A stretch of DNA of 5,902 nucleotides from Actinomycetes bacterium. Its GTDB lineage: Bacteria > Actinomycetota > Acidimicrobiia > Acidimicrobiales > Palsa-688. The stretch is from NCBI GenBank assembly GCA_021811865.1, contig JAKAQB010000139.1, positions 1 to 5,902 of the forward strand, written 5' to 3'. This document shows, in pieces, positions 1-5,902 of this stretch. The translations under genes and the position numbers were made by a program. Position 1 is the stretch's first letter; the number at the start of each line of letters is the position of its first letter. The notes beneath the pieces are model-generated. The model was given only the letters and a program-made list of their open reading frames with translations, did not search any database and had not been told where the DNA came from.

Positions 1-18
1 AACAGGCGTGGCGGCGAT

Positions 19-47
19 TGTGAAGTAGCAGTCGCACTTCATGTGTG
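19..47 (+). repeat. 29-bp palindromic spacer repeat, copy A (diverged)
   Basis: This is the most diverged of four related 29-bp units, the others being at 1242, 1970 and 5853. It keeps the opening TGTGAA, the central AGTCGCAC and a closing TGTG. It has an extra A that creates an ATG at 41, which opens the reading frame of the HicB fragment. The central AGAAGT/ACTTCT inverted repeat seen in copy D is mostly lost here. Confidence 0.55.
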
Positions 48-184
48 ATTTCGTCGGTGTGCGATTCACGGCAGCGATCGCGCATGAGGGCGAGTGGTTC
101 GCCGCTCGCGCCCTCGAGGTCGAGGTGACGACCCAGGACCACAGCAGCGATGAGGCGCCGGCCAACCTCCGACGAGCGCTACGA
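41..184 (+). pseudogene. Truncated HicB-type antitoxin fragment
   Basis: About 45 codons clearly match the HicB encoded at 2545-2336: FTAAIAHEGEWFAARALEVEV here against FTAAVTHEGGWYVARALEVEV there, followed by DEA.ANLR.AL in both. The match covers the strands and first helix of the HicB fold and stops after the helix. The C-terminal part of the partner (the LYFEDE segment and the PPIIATVQL strand) is missing, and no hicA lies next to it. The frame stays open through a basic linker (about residues 48-70) into the XRE antitoxin at 251, so a 177-residue chimera is formally possible. I judge it a remnant because the fold is incomplete and the downstream gene has its own ribosome binding site. Its plus orientation is opposite to the two hic operons nearby. 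Confidence 0.7.
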
Positions 185-236
185 CGCCCATCTCAGCGGG
201 GTGAACGCCGAGCAGGGTCACGCGAAGGGAAGTGGC

Positions 237-243
237 GGGAGGT
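237..243 (+). promoter_or_regulatory. Strong Shine-Dalgarno site for the XRE antitoxin
   Basis: GGGAGGT lies 7 bases before the ATG at 251. It is the clearest ribosome binding site in the window and supports 251 over the upstream in-frame ATG at 41 as the start of the antitoxin. Confidence 0.7.
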
Positions 244-250
244 AGGGAAG

Positions 251-574
251 ATGAGCGCACGAGACTGGGAGAAAGAGGTCCTTGCGACGAAGTGCGCCGA
301 GAAGCGAGTTGCCGAGATCGAACGGGAGCTCCTTCTCGCCAGCCGGCTCACGGCGTTGCGTGAAGGCGCTGGGGTCAGCCAGCGTGAGCTCGCGAAGCGT
401 CTGGGCGTCTCCCAGCCACGCGTCGCTGCCATCGAACGCTCGCACAACATGACGATCGAGGTACTCGAGCAGTACGTCGAGGCGCTCGGCGCAATGCTCG
501 AGGTGAACGTCCTCAAGGGCCGACGGAAGACCCGGCTGCTGGGGACGGGCAACGAAGGTGCCGAGTCAGCCTGA
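251..574 (+). CDS. XRE-family (HigA-like) antitoxin, orphan
   Basis: A 107-residue helix-turn-helix protein. Residues about 29-66 form the XRE/Cro HTH: SRLTALREGAG, then VSQRELAKRLG, then VSQPRVAAIER, the last being the recognition helix. It ends in a VLEQYVEALGAMLEVNV segment typical of HigA-type antitoxins, where the end of the helical domain is followed by a short beta strand. Such proteins neutralise a RelE/HigB-fold mRNA-cleaving toxin and repress their own operon. No toxin gene is visible beside it: upstream is the HicB fragment and a linker of about 65 bp, and downstream is a transposase relic. A short frame ending in TAG at 243-245 could be the last trace of a toxin 3' end, but this cannot be shown. 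The N-terminal 25 residues are charged and helical. It could equally be a solitary XRE regulator. Confidence 0.75.
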   Translation: MSARDWEKEVLATKCAEKRVAEIERELLLASRLTALREGAGVSQRELAKRLGVSQPRVAAIERSHNMTIEVLEQYVEALGAMLEVNVLKGRRKTRLLGTGNEGAESA

Positions 575-602
575 TCGTGACCCATACTGACGGGGCTCGG
601 CG

Positions 603-1090
603 GGAACCTTGGCAGCGGCGCTTCTGCGCGCGTACACAGACGGCGTCTCTCCCGGCGACGTGCTCTGCGACTGCGGGTACTCCAATCGTGACCCGAAGAC
701 CTTTGCCTCCATCTTGGTCATAGTGGAGATCGACGCCAAGCGCCGCCAGAAGCACCAGTACCCCTCCAATGCACACCGGTTCTCCTGCAGCCGGAGGACT
801 GCCGCGGAGCGCACGTTCGCGTGGTTCTCAGACCCCGCCACCGGCGGGGCCCGGCGGGGCTGGTCCCGCTGTTGAGGATCGGACGCGTGCCCGACGCGCT
901 CATGTACGCGCTGTGCGCCGCCGTGAGATGCGTCCGGCTCGCCCTGGGCGCAGAGGAACCGGAGAACGAAGCGGCACGGCGAGCGGCTATCGGCATCTCT
1001 CCACTCCGACGAAGGCGACGCCGTGAGCGGAACGCTGAGGAAGAGTCGAGCGAATCAGCAGACGGCGTGCCGGACCCCACACTCGGATAG
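603..1090 (+). pseudogene. Decayed IS4-like DDE transposase (N-terminal loss, internal deletion, frameshift)
   Basis: This is a relic of a transposase related to the intact one at 4132-5700. Homology starts near LLRAYTDGV, matching residue 237 onward of the intact protein, and includes the second catalytic Asp (DCGYSNRD). It then jumps from TFAS directly to ILVIVEIDAKRRQKH, skipping intact residues 268-396 (129 codons, in frame, near 711/712). The catalytic Glu motif follows (AAERTFAWF). The Tyr of the Y-R-E signature is lost and the Lys position is Ser. About 5 extra bases near 870-890 create a TGA at 873-875 and shift the frame. The rest of the match (DALMYALC...RRAA.G.SPLRRRRRR...ADGVPDPT) continues in the other frame to TAG at 1088-1090. 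Divergence from the intact copy shows it is not a recent deletion of that copy. It should not be active. Confidence 0.88.
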
Positions 1091-1215
1091 CTCCGGCAAA
1101 GTCCGCGCCCTGGGCGCCAGCTCGAACGACGCCTCGCTCGCCTGCGACACGCGCCCGGGTGCTTGTCGGGGAGTCTTGACCGGCTTGACGCCGCCGCACT
1201 CACCCTGAGCGCGCC
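1091..1215 (+). repeat. 3' flank of the transposase relic, homologous to 5701-5826
   Basis: This noncoding stretch follows the relic stop codon and aligns closely with the 3' flank of the intact element. Shared blocks include CCCTGGGCGCCAGCTCGAAC and GACGCCTC.CTCGCC.GCGACAC. It shows that the relic keeps the complete right side of its element. The small hairpin after the stop in the intact copy is disrupted here. Confidence 0.75.
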
Positions 1216-1241
1216 ACTTCACCAGGACGCCTGGGGGATTT

Positions 1242-1270
1242 TGTGAACAAGAATCTGCAACTTCTGTGAA
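1242..1270 (+). repeat. 29-bp palindromic spacer repeat, copy B
   Basis: Begins TGTGAACAAGAA and ends ACTTCTGTGAA. It sits at the right end of the transposase relic, the position that copy D takes at the end of the intact element. It contains a 9-codon GTG...TGA frame reading VNKNLQLL, similar to VNEKSQLL in copy D. I treat that frame as a consequence of the repeat, not a gene. Confidence 0.75.
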
Positions 1271-1279
1271 GAATATCGG

Positions 1280-1387
1280 GCGCCCCCGACCTCCCAGAAT
1301 GCGAACCTCGAGCCGCTGGTCGAAGGACCGGCAATCAGACTGGCGATCCGGCACACGAAGATCCGTCGCGAGGGCTACCTCAGGTGA
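1280..1387 (+). pseudogene. C-terminal coding tail of an unrecognised protein, copy 1
   Basis: The frame reads NLEPLVEGPAIRLAIRHTK, then IRREGYLR and TGA at 1385-1387. Compared with the copy at 2008-2115, many differences are synonymous third positions (V, E, G, A, T, K, R, R), and I/V and K/R replacements are conservative. That is the mark of past protein-level selection. No plausible start exists: an in-frame TGA lies at 1243-1245, inside the 29-bp core. It is therefore a 3' remnant of a gene. I do not recognise the family. It converges on hicB, whose stop codon is 25 bp away. Confidence 0.5.
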
Positions 1388-1412
1388 TGGCGCGCCACGG
1401 GCTCGTCACCGT

Positions 1413-1631
1413 TCATGCCACCCGGACCTTCGTCGAGCCCATCGCCGTCGGCGGGGGAATCGGCTCGCCATGCTCGCGCAGCGACTGGATGTGCAGAGGG
1501 ATCGCTTCGGCGATGAGCTCTTCGACCTCGTCGCGGGAGCAGCCAGCCGCCACGCACCCAGGAAGATCGGGTACATACGCGCCCCAGGCGTCGCCTTCCT
1601 GCTCGATCACGACGACGTACTCAGTCACCAT
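1413..1631 (-). CDS. hicB: HicB antitoxin (HicB-fold only, short form)
   Basis: A 72-residue protein with the textbook HicB fold: a first strand EYVVVIEQEGDAWGAYVPDLPGCV, then AAGCSRDEVEELIAEAIPLHIQSLREHGEPIPPP. HicB is a partly degraded RNase-H-like domain that binds and blocks the HicA mRNA interferase, and with its partner it usually represses the operon. Here the protein stops after the fold, with no added HTH or ribbon-helix-helix domain, so DNA binding would need the C-terminal segment (about residues 60-72) or another factor. The ATG at 1631 lies inside the end of hicA, an 11-bp overlap, with GGGAAGG five bases upstream, so the pair is co-transcribed and probably translationally coupled. 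It looks intact. It is the downstream gene of a hicA-hicB operon. Confidence 0.93.
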   Translation of the reverse strand: MVTEYVVVIEQEGDAWGAYVPDLPGCVAAGCSRDEVEELIAEAIPLHIQSLREHGEPIPPPTAMGSTKVRVA

Positions 1632-1824
1632 TCTGCCTTCCCGGCCTGCCGGCCTGCCGACAGATCGATCTCAGCGTACCCTTCGGCACTTCACCACTCG
1701 GCTTGCCTGCCACCGTCACCGTTCCAGGCCGGCCGGGATGGCGGAACTGGCGATGAGAGTCAACCTGCCTGTCGAGGCACCAGCCGTCTTGCTCCAAAGT
1801 ACGGATGACGTCTCGAACCTTCAC
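1621..1824 (-). CDS. hicA: HicA mRNA interferase toxin
   Basis: A 67-residue HicA with a small double-stranded-RNA-binding-like fold: VKVRDVIRTLEQDGW, the catalytic segment SHRQFRHP, then GTVTVAGKPS.EVPKGTLRSICRQAG. HicA cleaves mRNA and arrests growth when free of HicB. The His at residue 24 is the expected catalytic residue. The residue two before it is Asp (VDSH), where HicA proteins nearly always have Gly (GSH). This could weaken the toxin or reflect drift. The start is GTG at 1824, chosen because the family begins MKVRDV; no Shine-Dalgarno is evident. The frame is open further upstream, but that sequence is the 172-bp repeat and promoter region read backwards. It is first in the operon with hicB. 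Confidence 0.9.
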   Translation of the reverse strand: MKVRDVIRTLEQDGWCLDRQVDSHRQFRHPGRPGTVTVAGKPSGEVPKGTLRSICRQAGRPGRQNGD

Positions 1825-1943
1825 GGACTGAGGGTACGAGAAGGGTGTGACGACCGCGTCAAGCGACGCTAAGCTCCAGGTTCGGGCCGTGGAAGAGCCC
1901 ACCGCGGAAACTTGCCGGTCATCGGGTCGGTCGGCAGCGAACC
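1825..1943 (-). promoter_or_regulatory. Upstream region of hicA-hicB with a motif shared with the second hic operon
   Basis: This 119-bp stretch between the hicA start and the 172-bp repeat should hold the promoter. I cannot assign -35/-10 boxes with confidence. At 1879-1895, GGTTCG.GCCGTGGAAG (plus strand) occurs again at 2559-2575 with 16/17 identity. Both copies lie upstream of a hic operon and in the same orientation, although at different distances from the start codon. It may be a common promoter or regulator element, or sequence carried along with the modules. Confidence 0.4.
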
Positions 1944-1969
1944 TGTTCACCAGGCCGCTTGGGGACCTC

Positions 1970-1998
1970 TGTGAACAAGAAGTCGCACGTTCTGTGTA
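1970..1998 (+). repeat. 29-bp palindromic spacer repeat, copy C
   Basis: Begins TGTGAACAAGAAGTCGCAC and ends TTCTGTGTA. It matches copies B and D but is not next to any transposase sequence, so the unit is not simply a transposon end. Confidence 0.75.
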
Positions 1999-2007
1999 AT
2001 ATCTTCG

Positions 2008-2115
2008 GCGCCCCCGGCCTCCCAGAATGCGAACCTCGGTCCGCTGGTGGAGGGGCCGGCCATCACCCTGGCCGGCCGGCACACCAAAGTGCGCCGTGAG
2101 GGCTACGCCAAGTGA
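2008..2115 (+). pseudogene. C-terminal coding tail of an unrecognised protein, copy 2
   Basis: Reads NLGPLVEGPAITLAGRHTK, then VRREGYAK and TGA. It is the partner of the tail at 1280-1387, and the codon-aware pattern of differences is described there. The DNA upstream of the tail in this frame is the 29-bp core and offers no convincing start. It converges on the second hicA, whose stop is 5 bp away. Confidence 0.5.
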
Positions 2116-2120
2116 GGGCG

Positions 2121-2339
2121 TCAGAGAAGCGCGAAGAACTCCGCGGGCGTGAGACCGGCCTGTCTGAGCACCGAGCGGAGGGTGCCGATCGCAAGCTCCC
2201 GATGCATCGGCACGATGACCGTTCGATCGCCGCCTCGGAGCTTGACGTGGCTGCCTCGTTGACTGACCTGCACGAAACCGGCCTTGGACAAGGCGGCGAT
2301 GACGTCGGCACCACCGACGACCGGCAGTGCCGGGCTCAC
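2121..2339 (-). CDS. hicA: HicA mRNA interferase toxin (second operon)
   Basis: A 72-residue HicA: LPVVGGADVIAALSKAGF, the catalytic RGSHVKLR motif with His at residue 31, then DRTVIVPMHRELAIGTLRSVLRQAGLTPAEFFALL. All key family positions are present, including the Gly-Ser-His that is altered in the neighbouring HicA. Expected role: translation-independent mRNA cleavage when not held by HicB. The start is GTG at 2339, which overlaps the hicB stop by four bases (GTGA). This is typical of translational coupling and explains the lack of a Shine-Dalgarno. The order is hicB then hicA, opposite to the adjacent operon, and the two HicA proteins are of different subtypes, so this is not a recent tandem duplication. 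Confidence 0.92.
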   Translation of the reverse strand: MSPALPVVGGADVIAALSKAGFVQVSQRGSHVKLRGGDRTVIVPMHRELAIGTLRSVLRQAGLTPAEFFALL

Positions 2340-2545
2340 GCCGACAGCTGGACCGTCGCGATGATGGGAGGTTCGACGACCTCGGGCATGGTCTCGTCCT
2401 CGAAGTACAGCTCGAGCGCTTCCCGCAAGTTCGCCAAGGCCTCGTCGACCGTCCGACCCTGGCTGGTCACCTCGACCTCCAGGGCGCGCGCGACGTACCA
2501 CCCACCCTCGTGCGTGACCGCTGCGGTGAACTGCACGAGAACCAC
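2336..2545 (-). CDS. hicB: HicB-like antitoxin (second operon)
   Basis: About 69 residues from GTG at 2545: VVLVQFTAAVTHEGGWYVARALEVEVTSQGRTVDEALANLREALELYFEDETMPEVVEPPIIATVQLSA. This is the short HicB fold, with strands, the helix DEALANLREALELYFED, and a final strand PPIIATVQL. It should bind and inhibit the HicA encoded directly downstream. Start choice is uncertain: GTG at 2545, GTG at 2536 or TTG at 2581 are all in frame, and none has a good Shine-Dalgarno. I prefer 2545 because homology with the HicB fragment at 41-184 begins about there and because a palindrome (2541-2561) adjoins it, as expected for an operator at a promoter. The homologous fragment on the left of the window shows this subtype was once present twice. 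Confidence 0.88.
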   Translation of the reverse strand: MVLVQFTAAVTHEGGWYVARALEVEVTSQGRTVDEALANLREALELYFEDETMPEVVEPPIIATVQLSA

Positions 2546-2561
2546 TCTACGGCGTAGTGGT
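2541..2561. promoter_or_regulatory. Palindrome at the start of hicBA, candidate operator
   Basis: ACCACT at 2541-2546 is matched by AGTGGT at 2556-2561. Inside lies a second perfect palindrome, CTACG-G-CGTAG (2547-2557). The site overlaps the preferred GTG start of hicB. TA complexes commonly repress their own promoters through such dyads. Alternatively it is an mRNA hairpin at the start codon. Confidence 0.45.
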
Positions 2562-2581
2562 TCGCGCCGTGGAAGGTCCAA

Positions 2582-2794
2582 CCTGATGAAGTGACGCTGG
2601 TAGCGGATGTGGTGGTGAGGTCATCACACAAGGGTCTGAGCAGCCCCGACGCGCCGGGATCGACTGGTCACCCACGCGATGAGCGACGCCAGCCCACACC
2701 GCCAACTGCCCCACCAGGGACGTCGCGCGAAGGCCCGCTTCCATGGGGTCGGTCGGCCCCCTCTGTCCACTCTTGGACGGCGGGGCCCGGCGGC
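2582..2794. other. Gene-free interval between the hic promoter and the DUF6788-like gene
   Basis: No convincing gene is present. It should contain the left boundary of the three-gene element. A GTCCA-CTCT-TGGAC hairpin at 2765-2778 lies 17 bp beyond the stop of the minus-strand gene and could end its transcript, although no T-run follows it. Confidence 0.4.
2621..2632 (+). repeat. Tentative left inverted repeat of the element
   Basis: TCATCACACAAG compares with the inverted right end TCTTCACAGAAG, two mismatches in twelve. The position fits, but a match this short could be chance. Confidence 0.25.
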
Positions 2795-3172
2795 TCAGCG
2801 CTTCGAGCGGGGGTCGTCTTCGACGAGGGCGAGCCCGAGCTCTTCGAGCTCGTGGAGCAGGCGCTTCAATCGGCGGTCGTTGTCGAAGAAGACCTGGTAG
2901 TCGGCGAGCTGCTCGTCGGACAAAAGGCGCGTGACCGTCTTCTTCGAGACCTTGCGGGTCCAAGAGCGGAAGGGCCCGTGCAGGCGTGGCGGTGTCCTGC
3001 GGCACGAGCAGGCCGCCTTGCCGCAGCGTCCCTCCCTCACGACGACGCTACCGGGGAGGCAGGGCCCGATCGTCTGGAGCTCCGCTTGGATGCGCGCCAA
3101 CGCGGCGCCCTGGCGTGAGCTGAGGCGCACGCCCGAGAGCTTCCCAGAGGATCCACCGCTCCGAGAGGACAT
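2795..3172 (-). CDS. DUF6788-like transposon-associated protein
   Basis: A 125-residue protein from ATG at 3172. A helical N-terminus (SSRQGAALARIQAELQTIG) is followed by the family core: PGSVVVREGRCGKAACSCRR, then PPRLHGPFRSWTRKVSKKTVTRLLSDEQLADYQ, and a charged C-terminal helix DNDRRLKRLLHELEELGLALVEDD. Cysteines 50, 55 and 57 (CGKAACSC) plus nearby His65 could form a small metal site. The GPF.SWTRKV.KKTVTR segment is the most recognisable part of the family, whose function is unknown to me. It diverges from the integrase-like gene with start codons 21 bp apart, so the two are probably controlled together. There is no Shine-Dalgarno. TACTGT at 3185-3180 ends 7 bases before the ATG, as a -10 box for a leaderless transcript would. 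An accessory DNA-binding or regulatory role in transposition is inference. Confidence 0.8.
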   Translation of the reverse strand: MSSRSGGSSGKLSGVRLSSRQGAALARIQAELQTIGPCLPGSVVVREGRCGKAACSCRRTPPRLHGPFRSWTRKVSKKTVTRLLSDEQLADYQVFFDNDRRLKRLLHELEELGLALVEDDPRSKR

Positions 3173-3201
3173 TGTGCCAACAGTACATACACTGTGGCAC
3201 A
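3173..3201. promoter_or_regulatory. Imperfect palindrome filling the divergent start region, candidate shared operator
   Basis: TGTGCCA (3173-3179) is the exact inverse of TGGCACA (3195-3201). After one bulged A, CAGT (3181-3184) is the inverse of ACTG (3191-3194), giving 11 paired positions around the loop ACATAC. The dyad covers the whole 21-bp gap between the ATG at 3172 and the GTG at 3194 and runs into the second gene. A dimeric regulator bound here would block both promoters. Confidence 0.65.
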
Positions 3202-4099
3202 CGAGCTCCCTGCGGCCGTCGCCCAGGCGATCGAGCGGTTCTGCCCGAGCGGCGTCGACGAAGAAGCCGCCCGCTTCGCACGAGAGCTCGTCGCACACGC
3301 CGCTCCAGAGTCGGTCAACCGGGCCAAGGCCTTTTTGTTCGCGGCCTCTCGTCTGGGCGCCTTCGGCGAGGCCTGTGGCCTCGAGCTCAGCGCAGAGGTG
3401 CTGGTGCGCCCGTCGGTGATCGAGCGGTTCTGTGCGCCGGGGGTGAGCGCCATGTCTGCTGCGACGCGCCGGACCGTGCGCACCAACCTGCGGGCGATCG
3501 CCCGGCGGGTCGCGCCTTTGGGGCCCGAGGCGCCCCGCCTTTCGCGCGAGCGGGCCAAGGCCCCCTACAGCAGAGCCGAGATCGCGGCCTACCTCGCCCT
3601 CTCAGACGCCCAGCCGACCGAGGGGCGCCGGCTGCGGGCGTCAGCGCTCGTCTGCCTCTCGGCGGGTGCGGGGCTCGTCGGAGCTGACTTGAAGGCCGTC
3701 TGTGGCACCGACGTCGCCCTGCGCTCGGGGGGCGTCGTGGTCGTGGTGCGCCAGGGGCGCCGTCCGCGCGTGGTCCCGGTGCTCCGCCGCTTCCACGAGC
3801 GGCTGGTGCACGCCGCGGACCTCGCCGGCACCGGTCTTCTCATCGGCGGCACATCTGTGTCCCGGCGCAACGTGACGACGCCCATCACCGCGTCGCTTGC
3901 GGGCGGACGAGACCTTCCACGCCTCGACGTCTCGAGGCTTCGGGCGACGTGGCTGTGCGAGGTGGCCGAGGCGATCGGCCTGCGCGCCTTCATGGACGCG
4001 GCCGGCATCGTCTGCTCGCAGCGCCTGGGCGATCTCGTCGCTCACCTGGAGAAGGGGAGCGAGGCTGATGTGGTCGCGCTCGTCGGGGGACCGCTCTGA
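3194..4099 (+). CDS. Tyrosine-recombinase-fold protein without the catalytic tetrad (integrase-like accessory)
   Basis: A 301-residue protein. Residues about 43-118 look like an integrase core-binding (SAM-like) domain: a helix bundle, then VIERFC...MSAATRRTVRTNLRAIARRV. Residues 125-285 look like the catalytic fold: YSRAEIAAYLAL, then ALVCLSAGAGLVGADLKAV, a beta hairpin SGGVVVVVRQGRRPRVVPV, and DVSRLRATWLCEVAEAIGLRAFMDAAGI. Aligned to active recombinases by eye, Arg-I is Val162, the HxxR box is S247-R-L-R250 (only Arg kept), the second His is about Ile272, and the Tyr nucleophile is about Leu281. The C-terminal part after residue 254 has no Tyr at all. It is therefore unlikely to recombine DNA but may still bind it. 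The GTG start at 3194 gives MAHELP, a beginning I recall from homologs. It is followed by the transposase gene, probably in one operon. Confidence 0.75.
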   Translation: MAHELPAAVAQAIERFCPSGVDEEAARFARELVAHAAPESVNRAKAFLFAASRLGAFGEACGLELSAEVLVRPSVIERFCAPGVSAMSAATRRTVRTNLRAIARRVAPLGPEAPRLSRERAKAPYSRAEIAAYLALSDAQPTEGRRLRASALVCLSAGAGLVGADLKAVCGTDVALRSGGVVVVVRQGRRPRVVPVLRRFHERLVHAADLAGTGLLIGGTSVSRRNVTTPITASLAGGRDLPRLDVSRLRATWLCEVAEAIGLRAFMDAAGIVCSQRLGDLVAHLEKGSEADVVALVGGPL

Positions 4100-4131
4100 G
4101 CCGGGCCCCCAGGAGAGCGGCCATCGAGGCC

Positions 4132-5700
4132 GTGATCGTCGCGTCGGGGGTCGCAGACCTGCTCGAAGGGCTGATGCCCACCGGTGGCCGGCCCCGCCAG
4201 CTTCGGGCGGCCACGGTGCTGTTGGCCATGGCCTTTTCCATCGACGAGGGCCGCCCCGCGCACCTTGCGGCCGGATGGCGGACGCTCTGCGGCCTCCCCG
4301 GTGCGACACGGCTGCGCCTTCGTGCCGCTGAGACACGCACAGGCACCCTCCACGACGCGACCTACCGCCAGTTCGCCCACGCGCACCGCGCGATGGTGGT
4401 GACCCTCGACCCCGCGCCCGTCCCCTCGTTTGCCGGCGTCGCCGAAGACGGCCGCGCCGCCTACCTCGACGCCGCGCGCATCGGCGTCGACGCCGAGGTG
4501 CGAGAAGAACGCCTCGACAGGGTCCTCGACCAGCTGGTGGAGGCCTCGGTCCCCAGCCGCTACAAGACGTCGTCGCGCGCGCTCGCGGTCGACTGGACCG
4601 ACCACGAGACCTGGTCGAGACCGAGGGCGAAGGACGACCCGGTCCCGGCCAACGACCCGACAGCCTCCTGGGGCCACGCCAAGCGCAACGCCCCGGGCGC
4701 AAAGGACCAGCTCTTCTTCGGCTACTACGCGCAGGTGGCGACGATGGTGAAAGAAGAGCGCGGGGAGGCGGTGCCCGAGCTCGTCCGCCGGATCGCCTTC
4801 GCCGCACCGAGAAAGGACCCGCCGGCCGTCATGAAAGAGGTGCTCGTGCGCGCGTACACGGCCGGCGTCGAAGCCGGTGACGTCCTGGCCGACTGCGGGT
4901 ACTCGAACCGTGACCCCGAGACCTTCGCCTCCCCGCTCAGGCGTGCGGGGGCGAGCCTCGTCGTGGACCTCCACCCCACAGACCGCGGGCCGCGGGGCAC
5001 CCACCACGGGGCGATCGTCTCCAACGGCAACCTCTATTGCCCGGCCACGCCCCTCGCCCTTTTGGAGCTCTCCCCGCTCGCACGACAGGCGTCGGCGGAG
5101 GAGACCGCCGCCCACGACGAAAGGACCAAGGAGCTCTCCTGCTACAAGCTCGGGCGGATCTCTTCTGACGACGAGGACGGGACGCACCGGGTCATGTGCC
5201 CGGCCGTGATGGAAAAGGTCCGGTGCCCATTGCGCCCTGCGTCGATGGCGCTCGACTACACCCACCCAGAGGTGGCCTCCCCTCCCGACGAGCCCCCCAC
5301 CTGCTGCACCCAGAAGACGATCTCGGTCCCGGTCAGCGTCGACACGAAGCGCCGCCAGAAGCACGACTATCCCTCCAGAGCCCACCGGCTCTCCTACAAC
5401 CGAAGGACCGCGTCCGAGCGCACGTTCTCGTGGATCCAAGACCCCGCCACCGGGGGGATCCGGCGCGGCTGGTCGCGTCTTTTCGGCCGCGCGCCGAACG
5501 CGCTCATGTACGCGCTGTGCGTCGTCGTGAGAAACGTCCGGCTCGTCTTGGCTCACGAGGACCGAGAAGCAGAGGCGGCGCGGCGAGCGGCGATGGGCCT
5601 GTCTCCACTCCGGCGCAGGCGACGGCGGCGGCGTGAGCGGCGCGCGCGGCCTGCGTGCAGCGAACCGGCGGATGGCGTGCCGGATCCCACACCCGAATAG
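4132..5700 (+). CDS. IS4-like DDE transposase with Cys-containing insertion domain
   Basis: 522 residues from GTG 4132. An N-terminal helical domain (PRQLRAATVLLAMAFSIDEGRPAHL) precedes the DDE core: Asp154 (LAVDWTD), Asp254 (ADCGYSNRD) and Glu429 (TASERTFSW). The Y-(2)-R-(3)-E-(6)-K signature of IS4-type transposases is present as Y422, R425, E429, but the last position is Gln436. Between Asp254 and Glu429 lies a large insertion (about 268-396) with C303, C337, C356, C365 and C391-392, a possible metal site. The C-terminus has an Arg run (494-505). It should cut and join the element's ends. The start may instead be CTG at 4096, whose CTGA overlaps the previous gene's stop and gives the LSRAPRRAAIEAVI beginning seen in homologs I recall. 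AGGAG at 4111-4115 is rather far (16 bases) from 4132. No frameshift is seen, so it could be functional. Confidence 0.88.
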   Translation: MIVASGVADLLEGLMPTGGRPRQLRAATVLLAMAFSIDEGRPAHLAAGWRTLCGLPGATRLRLRAAETRTGTLHDATYRQFAHAHRAMVVTLDPAPVPSFAGVAEDGRAAYLDAARIGVDAEVREERLDRVLDQLVEASVPSRYKTSSRALAVDWTDHETWSRPRAKDDPVPANDPTASWGHAKRNAPGAKDQLFFGYYAQVATMVKEERGEAVPELVRRIAFAAPRKDPPAVMKEVLVRAYTAGVEAGDVLADCGYSNRDPETFASPLRRAGASLVVDLHPTDRGPRGTHHGAIVSNGNLYCPATPLALLELSPLARQASAEETAAHDERTKELSCYKLGRISSDDEDGTHRVMCPAVMEKVRCPLRPASMALDYTHPEVASPPDEPPTCCTQKTISVPVSVDTKRRQKHDYPSRAHRLSYNRRTASERTFSWIQDPATGGIRRGWSRLFGRAPNALMYALCVVVRNVRLVLAHEDREAEAARRAAMGLSPLRRRRRRRRERRARPACSEPADGVPDPTPE

Positions 5701-5826
5701 CTCCGGCGCAGTCTGCGCCCTGGGCGCCAGCTCGAACGACGCCTCACTCGCCGGCGACACGCGCCCAGGTGCTCGTTCGGAGGGTCTCGACCGGCCTGAC
5801 GCAGCCGTGCTCATCCTGAACGTGCC
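5701..5826 (+). repeat. 3' flank of the intact transposase, homologous to 1091-1215
   Basis: Noncoding sequence after the stop that is strongly conserved with the relic flank. Homology fades between about 5826 and the 29-bp repeat copy D. This shows what the element's right side contains beyond the gene. Confidence 0.75.
5705..5719 (+). terminator. Hairpin just after the transposase stop, possible terminator
   Basis: GGCGCA-GTC-TGCGCC is a perfect 6-bp stem starting 5 bases after the TAG. No T-run follows, so it may be a weak or factor-assisted terminator, or an mRNA-stabilising stem. The relic's copy has lost the pairing. Confidence 0.35.
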
Positions 5827-5852
5827 TGTCCAGAGGGCACTCGGTCGGCTTC

Positions 5853-5881
5853 TGTGAACGAGAAGTCGCAACTTCTGTGAA
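5853..5881 (+). repeat. 29-bp palindromic spacer repeat, copy D, at the right end of the element
   Basis: The best-formed copy. It has a perfect inverted repeat, AGAAGT (5861-5866) and ACTTCT (5871-5876), around CGCA. It is flanked by two direct repeats of CTTCTGTGAA (5849-5858 and 5872-5881). Such a layout could be a binding site for the transposase or its accessory protein at the right end. Confidence 0.65.
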
Positions 5882-5883
5882 GA

Positions 5884-5902
5884 TTTTGTGGTCGGGCTGC
5901 CC
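5884..5902. other. Flanking DNA beyond the element
   Basis: The last 19 bases no longer match the relic flank. They are too short to assign. Confidence 0.4.

Follow-up and report, generated by a model that had tools for sequence, protein, structure and literature searches.

A transposon built from two adjoining genes, one for a tyrosine-recombinase relative without a catalytic site and one for a DDE transposase, lies in a recurrent position and orientation beside transfer RNA (tRNA) and transfer-messenger RNA (tmRNA) genes. Our analysis started from the 5,902-nt contig JAKAQB010000139.1 (positions 1 to 5,902, forward strand; hereafter the window) of an Actinomycetes bacterium of the Palsa-688 lineage (Acidimicrobiales; assembly GCA_021811865.1). 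The two genes are designated here TRL (tyrosine-recombinase-like) and TNP (DDE transposase), names coined in this analysis. We infer, with a probability of about 0.6, that TRL, as a domesticated integrase, reads tRNA and tmRNA genes for TNP. In the window, the element and its two genes are placed as follows:

2617-5887, + strand: transposon as delimited, 3271 bp, with termini GAGGTCATCAC (left) and GTGAAGATTTT (right) defined by comparison with relatives and a 5-bp direct repeat outside
3194-4099, + strand: TRL, tyrosine-recombinase-like protein without catalytic site, 301 aa
4132-5700, + strand: TNP, DDE transposase, 522 aa, directly 3' of TRL

TRL and TNP form one transposon

TRL and TNP are neighbours across deep divergence and constitute a single transposon. 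Searches gave at least 5271 relatives of TRL and at least 4887 of TNP, and the pairing was evaluated in two scans of 296 genomes each, covering the classes of the genomes that contain loci L024 (Acidimicrobiaceae) and L034 (Streptosporangiaceae). TRL was found in 13 genomes of each scan, amounting to 30 modules, most of them distant (E values of 1e-10 to 1e-38); the centre genomes G002 and G005, picked because they carry the element, contribute three of the 30. TNP adjoined TRL on the same strand in every one of these modules, extending to other genomes the coupling to a transposase that an earlier note had proposed from the window alone. Independent scans of the same genomes with TNP produced matches in 26 and 16 genomes, including 13 of 13 and 12 of 13 TRL genomes (hypergeometric probabilities for the overlap of 6e-16 and 3e-17, not corrected for genome relatedness), and the sole TRL genome missed by the TNP scan, G511, still carries TNP beside TRL. 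With a broader TRL profile, TRL was detected beside or near TNP in six of the 14 genomes examined, out of 17 with TNP only, and in none of the other eight; among these eight, only locus L154 has an intact-looking TNP away from a contig end.

Likewise, TNP was located downstream of TRL in 35 of 42 loci fetched through TRL (tblastn), with several of the others stopping at contig ends. The distances of both proteins are correlated (r 0.87, 38 loci), and 30 of 75 pairs have a 4-nt overlap between the TRL stop and the TNP start. Adjacent TRL and TNP genes also occur on plasmid pSCL3 of Streptomyces clavuligerus and on a plasmid of a Streptomyces sp., and a plasmid of Rhodococcus opacus contains two consecutive TRL genes followed by TNP. 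Both proteins are annotated as hypothetical in all three annotated plasmid records, and such elements have thus probably been overlooked. We found no close relatives of either protein in viral contigs, and no match in a DNA-level search of the plasmid collection with positions 3190-5902. A double TRL precedes TNP in L002 (4109-7562) and L138, and L105 contains extra TRL-like stretches 3' of TNP; some lineages may use TRL as a heterodimer.

TRL is a disarmed tyrosine recombinase

TRL is a homologue of the tyrosine-recombinase superfamily, both by sequence profile and by predicted fold. The TRL profile matched six PDB chains at E ≤ 0.01, every one of them a Xer or integrase protein, including 4a8e (a XerA-like chain, 1.3e-15), 1a0p (6.1e-8) and 5hxy (3.4e-5). 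The predicted structure shows the core-binding and catalytic-domain fold that the earlier note had recognised in this protein, and the phage regulators MrpR, YopR and SroF appear among its structural matches. Pfam and PHROGs contained no family for TRL or TNP at useful scores, and the best that NCBIfam offered for TRL was XerC at E 0.032, far under the cut-off.

As the same note had claimed, the catalytic residues are replaced in the window protein, which retains only R250 (Arg-II) from the R-K-H-R-H/W-Y set. Their loss is general, because Lys, His-II and His/Trp-III were kept in 0/60 and 0/40 aligned TRL rows (100 in total), the latter 40 being diverse homologues. Arg-II (R250) is invariant throughout the 100 rows, and among the 40 diverse ones Tyr is retained in ten and Arg-I in nine. 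The reading frame is open and conserved, with invariant surface residues across 60 homologues. TRL begins with the core-binding domain and its translation lacks any CxxC, so the zinc-finger N-terminal region of the TnsF type is absent.

TNP presumably acts by DDE chemistry, its triad (D154, D254 and E430, in the numbering of P0121, one residue longer than the window TNP) being invariant in 59 homologues. Compared with known structures for an RNase H-like fold, the TNP model (predicted template modelling score, pTM, 0.82) had as top PDB matches the P element (E 1.8e-3) and Tn5 (E 5.1e-3) transposases, with none at E ≤ 0.001. It shows a weak similarity to the IS1182 family (NCBIfam NF033551), whose profile matched the window TNP at E 2.8e-4, but at 18.6-19.9 bits, far under the curated cut-off of 270, and matched 21 of the 59 homologues at E ≤ 0.001 (best, 2.5e-10). 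IS1182 elements are not known to carry a TRL-like gene. Beside a tRNA-Ala gene in L163 (1555-3258), a single frame ends in the C-terminal part of TNP, its N-terminal part being what we take to be an IS256-type transposase.

The element lies beside tRNA and tmRNA genes

Two of the 30 scan modules stop at contig ends, which leaves 28 for assessment. In 25 of them, a whole tRNA or tmRNA gene lies downstream of TNP and faces the element, with the number of tRNA genes given as 20 and that of tmRNA genes as four (five over all loci). These 25 include L132, where the gene lies 654 nt past the TNP frame, beyond the limits of the scan of all loci; of the remaining three modules, L103 has a T-arm motif only, and L133 and L136 have none. 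That wider scan took in every locus whose TNP extends into the C-terminal part, 80 in total. In 44 of them the opposite strand carries a complete gene for a tRNA (39) or tmRNA (5), lying 178-424 nt past the end of the TNP match with its 3' end toward the element. Another ten loci show the T-arm motif only, for which the chance rate of the scan was 105 in 1600 stretches, and 26 show neither, although 11 of these have 355 nt or less of DNA left.

The genes used as targets are those for Arg, Leu, Ser, Gly, Ala, Met, Lys, Ile and Val tRNAs, together with tmRNA; shared by tRNA and tmRNA targets are the T-arm and the acceptor end. Modules at tmRNA (ssrA) were seen in L091, L093, L104, L106, L139 and L151, with a whole tmRNA gene in five and the T-arm alone in L106. 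On the upstream side of 92 loci, many of which have less DNA there, no tRNA gene was found within 1.2 kb. As a control we used transposases with an unrelated domain, PF00665, at 30 loci from 20 of the same genomes: three had a tRNA gene within 1.5 kb, none had one facing it within 460 nt and one had a facing gene at 621 nt, the comparison being approximate because these distances run from the end of the domain.

Right ends stop beside whole tRNA genes, and tRNA-like remnants also flank older right ends in the window. At 11 of 17 right ends in close relatives of the window element (the close family), the opposite strand carries the T-loop motif of a tRNA gene, beginning 17 or 18 nt past the terminus, a fixed spacing that suggests measurement from the T-arm; in one of the other six the motif begins at 22 nt, and in five it is absent. 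Besides these 17, six right ends are followed by another copy, and at four the flank is too short.

On one contig of genome G455, modules L133, L136 and L135 lie in a row, with the last, L135, at a tRNA-Ser gene. The gaps between them, of about 9 and 18 kb (L184 and L185), contain genes for a kinase, ThiF, a radical S-adenosylmethionine protein, a major facilitator superfamily protein, IstB and others, and the array looks like a tRNA-side island grown by repeated insertion.

Ends, duplications and tandem copies

In close relatives the left terminus reads GAGGTCTTCACGTTTGG and the right terminus is its inverse, with a second copy of the repeat about 23 bp further inward at the right end; relatives contain, in the same place of the right end, a pair of short repeats with a similar spacing to those of the window copy. 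Exact direct repeats of 5 or 6 bp flank 6 of 21 copies, a number reached in none of 20,000 shuffles. One of the six, L010, shows the same junction at both ends and is a possible circle or tandem array, so that its duplication proves nothing. Without it, 5 of 20 copies have such repeats (0 shuffles) and, without all tandem loci, 5 of 18 (2 of 20,000 shuffles), an exact repeat being absent from the other 13. Head-to-tail copies separated by spacers of 5 to 7 nt were observed in L010, L011, L012, L013 and L021.

For the distant modules we found no clear left end. When the 37 nt at the outer edge of the right side were compared with the upstream sequence, the score was above all 50 shuffles solely in L018, L023 and L036, all from the close family. 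The exact ends of distant modules being undefined, the statement that the element abuts a tRNA gene is exact for the close family only. As judged by eye, each family has terminal repeats of a different sequence while the target class is constant; for this reason, the idea that these repeats are T-loop mimics was dropped. Seeking an empty site, we searched 60 relatives for the left flank of L126 and obtained partial matches in ten besides G319; none of the four places inspected was beside a tRNA-Ala gene, and the search yielded no empty site.

Organization of the window copy

The remaining features of the window copy are:

2612-2616: left copy of the target-site duplication, GTGGT, identical to 5888-5892
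2617-2632, + strand: left terminal inverted repeat, the counterpart of the terminus given above for relatives
2795-3298, - strand: divergent open reading frame with a DUF6788 domain at residues 67-159 (PF20586, E 1.9e-24)
3173-3201: imperfect palindrome across the TRL start, TGTGCCAACAGT ACATAC ACTGTGGCACA, as read from the sequence
5849-5858 and 5872-5881, + strand: two copies of CTTCTGTGAA at the right end, 23 bp apart, likewise read from the sequence
5872-5887, - strand: right terminal repeat, CTTCTGTGAAGATTTT, matching the right terminus of the partial copy at 593-1276
5888-5892: right copy of the target-site duplication, GTGGT, a perfect 5-bp match to the left copy
5893-5902, - strand: CGGGCTGCCC, resembling the flank of L009, CGGGCTGCCGGGATTTGAACC; 10 bases, after which the window ends

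The last of these probably represents the 3' end of a tRNA-Pro-like gene that is truncated where the window stops. ARAGORN and Rfam called no tRNA in the window, the final 10 bases being too short for a call.

The DUF6788 frame belongs to the element in close relatives, and the gene is divergent and 5' of TRL in 33 of 42 loci (tblastn); a literature search for DUF6788 found no paper naming the family. Of 28 stretches upstream of TRL in relatives, 15 contain a palindrome in which at least 9 of the 11 arm positions pair, against a background of 5.6% of shuffles and 4 of 28 stretches within the gene. The window palindrome has a 1-nt offset and was missed by this ungapped scan. In L009, L010, L014, L021, L022, L041 and others, a TATA is enclosed by palindromes about 26 bp long, the arms of which vary from one relative to another yet stay complementary. 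The palindrome upstream of TRL is a possible operator.

Other parts of the window contain remnants of the same element. A shortened second copy, 73-82% identical, occupies positions 593-1276 and comprises the C-terminal part of TNP and the right end, and another copy, at 1936-2004, is reduced to the right end alone. Both of these older right ends then run, as judged by eye, into the same tRNA-Arg-like 3' sequence. Toxin-antitoxin-like genes lie between the copies (41-574, 1413-1631 and 2121-2581), including a helix-turn-helix protein, a HicB-like antitoxin, a HicA toxin and another HicB-like frame.

Which protein reads the target

TRL is the obvious candidate for the reader because a disarmed integrase adjoins the transposase and the target is the one that tyrosine integrases use, tmRNA included. 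TnsF of Tn6022 is a precedent for a selector of this type in another DDE transposon (PMC10293859). In the mechanism that we propose, TRL would bind the T-arm and acceptor part of the tRNA or tmRNA gene, as integrases do at their attachment sites, and would recruit TNP through a predicted contact between both proteins; TNP would hold the terminal repeats and insert the element at a fixed distance past the T-arm, with the tRNA gene retaining its full sequence.

Several observations weigh against this proposal. L154 contains an intact TNP (3921-5747, 608 aa) beside a tRNA-Leu gene and no recognisable TRL, its upstream neighbour being an AAA/OLD-like ATPase on the other strand, and no TRL was recognised in ten loci at tRNA or tmRNA genes, the majority of which are truncated or lie at a contig end. 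In partial Mantel tests, for which six target labels were assigned by eye, target identity was not associated with TRL given TNP distance (r -0.01, p 0.56), but it was with TNP given TRL (r 0.12, p 0.01); the idea that the target follows the phylogeny of TRL rather than that of TNP was therefore not supported. It is because of these three lines of evidence that we place TRL as reader no higher than stated at the outset. Additionally, neither a tRNA gene nor a T-arm was found in 15 of 69 loci with enough flank, and the plasmid modules L001, L002 and L004 are without a tRNA gene. The earlier suggestion of a targeting or end-recognition subunit gained a possible specific target, tRNA and tmRNA genes, but TRL was not singled out over TNP as the reader by the partial Mantel tests or by L154.

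The same evidence bears on an alternative that we consider rather unlikely, in which TNP, or the terminal repeats together with TNP, sets the specificity for tRNA genes and TRL is an end-binding assembly factor, somewhat like TnpI of Tn5401. Both L154 and the closer tie of target identity to TNP distance favour it, and an accessory protein could naturally bind the pair of short repeats at the right end; in Tn5401, copies of the TnpI-binding site lie near each end (PMC7157771). It is opposed by the typical use of tRNA and tmRNA genes by tyrosine integrases (PMC4383910), the superfamily from which TRL descends, and by terminal repeats that vary between families, by eye, when the target class does not. 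Less probable still is a reading in which TRL has no part in targeting and represses transcription of the element, in the manner of MrpR (YopR) from phages. The fold of MrpR is that of a tyrosine recombinase, key catalytic residues are absent from it and it functions as a repressor (PMC10516654); it is found with YopR and SroF among the structural matches of TRL, and many relatives have a palindrome just 5' of TRL. This palindrome, however, could bind TNP or another regulator, and repression leaves the tRNA and tmRNA target unexplained; both roles of TRL, repressor and target reader, do not exclude each other. Finally, tyrosine recombinases such as TnpI act as resolvases of Tn3-family transposons (PMC7157771), and TRL could be a resolvase in decay, or a recombinase that has kept its activity, and serve to resolve cointegrates, possibly together with the host XerC/D. 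Despite the Tyr and Arg-I surviving in some of the diverse rows, we regard this as very improbable, given that Lys, His-II and His/Trp-III are kept in 0/100 rows and that TRL stays open and conserved, with its invariant surface residues.

Relation to known systems and implications

Separately, the parts of this proposal are already known: disarmed tyrosine recombinases as a regulator (MrpR, PMC10516654) and as a target selector (TnsF, PMC10293859), and DDE transposons homing to tRNA genes (CyCAST, via TnsD, PMC10293859). Among the papers listed in literature searches, largely without subscription papers, none was on a tRNA-targeting insertion sequence of the TRL-TNP kind, and none joined these parts in a two-gene element at tRNA and tmRNA genes outside Tn7.

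TnsF of the Tn7-like Tn6022 contains a catalytically dead tyrosine-recombinase domain shown to choose the target of a DDE transposon (PMC10293859), and TRL is also an inactivated domain of this type encoded by a DDE transposon. However, TnsF has a zinc-finger N-terminal region, uses TniQ and the Tn7 core and targets a protein gene, comM (PMC10293859), whereas TRL is a 301-aa protein without CxxC, with one transposase partner and a tRNA or tmRNA target. Type I-D CRISPR-associated transposons (CAST I-D; CyCAST) resemble our element in being DDE-type transposons that home downstream of a tRNA gene (tRNA-Leu) via a protein selector, but the selector is TnsD, of the TniQ family, insertion occurs 30-33 nt downstream and no tyrosine-recombinase-like protein is described (PMC10293859). 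The tyrosine integrases of genomic islands at tRNA and tmRNA genes (Islander, PMC4383910) share the target class and their superfamily with TRL, but they split the target, which is then restored by island sequence through tyrosine chemistry; the TRL-TNP element combines terminal inverted repeats and, in some copies, short duplications with a DDE transposase and a non-catalytic accessory protein. Like TRL, MrpR/YopR and SroF have a tyrosine-recombinase fold without recombinase activity (shown for MrpR) and bind DNA (PMC10516654), which is predicted for TRL. Unlike TRL, they are phage regulators unlinked to a transposase, and MrpR keeps Lys and Tyr, neither of which is present in the window TRL.

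We lean, at slightly better than even odds, towards a tyrosine integrase that was disarmed, separately from TnsF, into a reader of tRNA and tmRNA genes serving an unrelated DDE transposase; no Tn7 machinery would be involved, and TRL and TNP would have co-diverged to about 25% identity in an ancient two-gene module while the target class remained constant.

Tyrosine integrases and DDE transposases use separate chemistries, and tRNA genes are the classic address of integrases; here, the tRNA address and a disarmed integrase accompany DDE chemistry. If TRL is the reader, the module would be a small two-protein system inserting DNA at a conserved, largely harmless site in many genomes, simpler than Tn7-like systems, and the second case after TnsF of integrases recycled as target selectors. 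Two questions become testable with it: what an integrase recognises in a tRNA gene without cutting it, and how a simple transposase gains a target.

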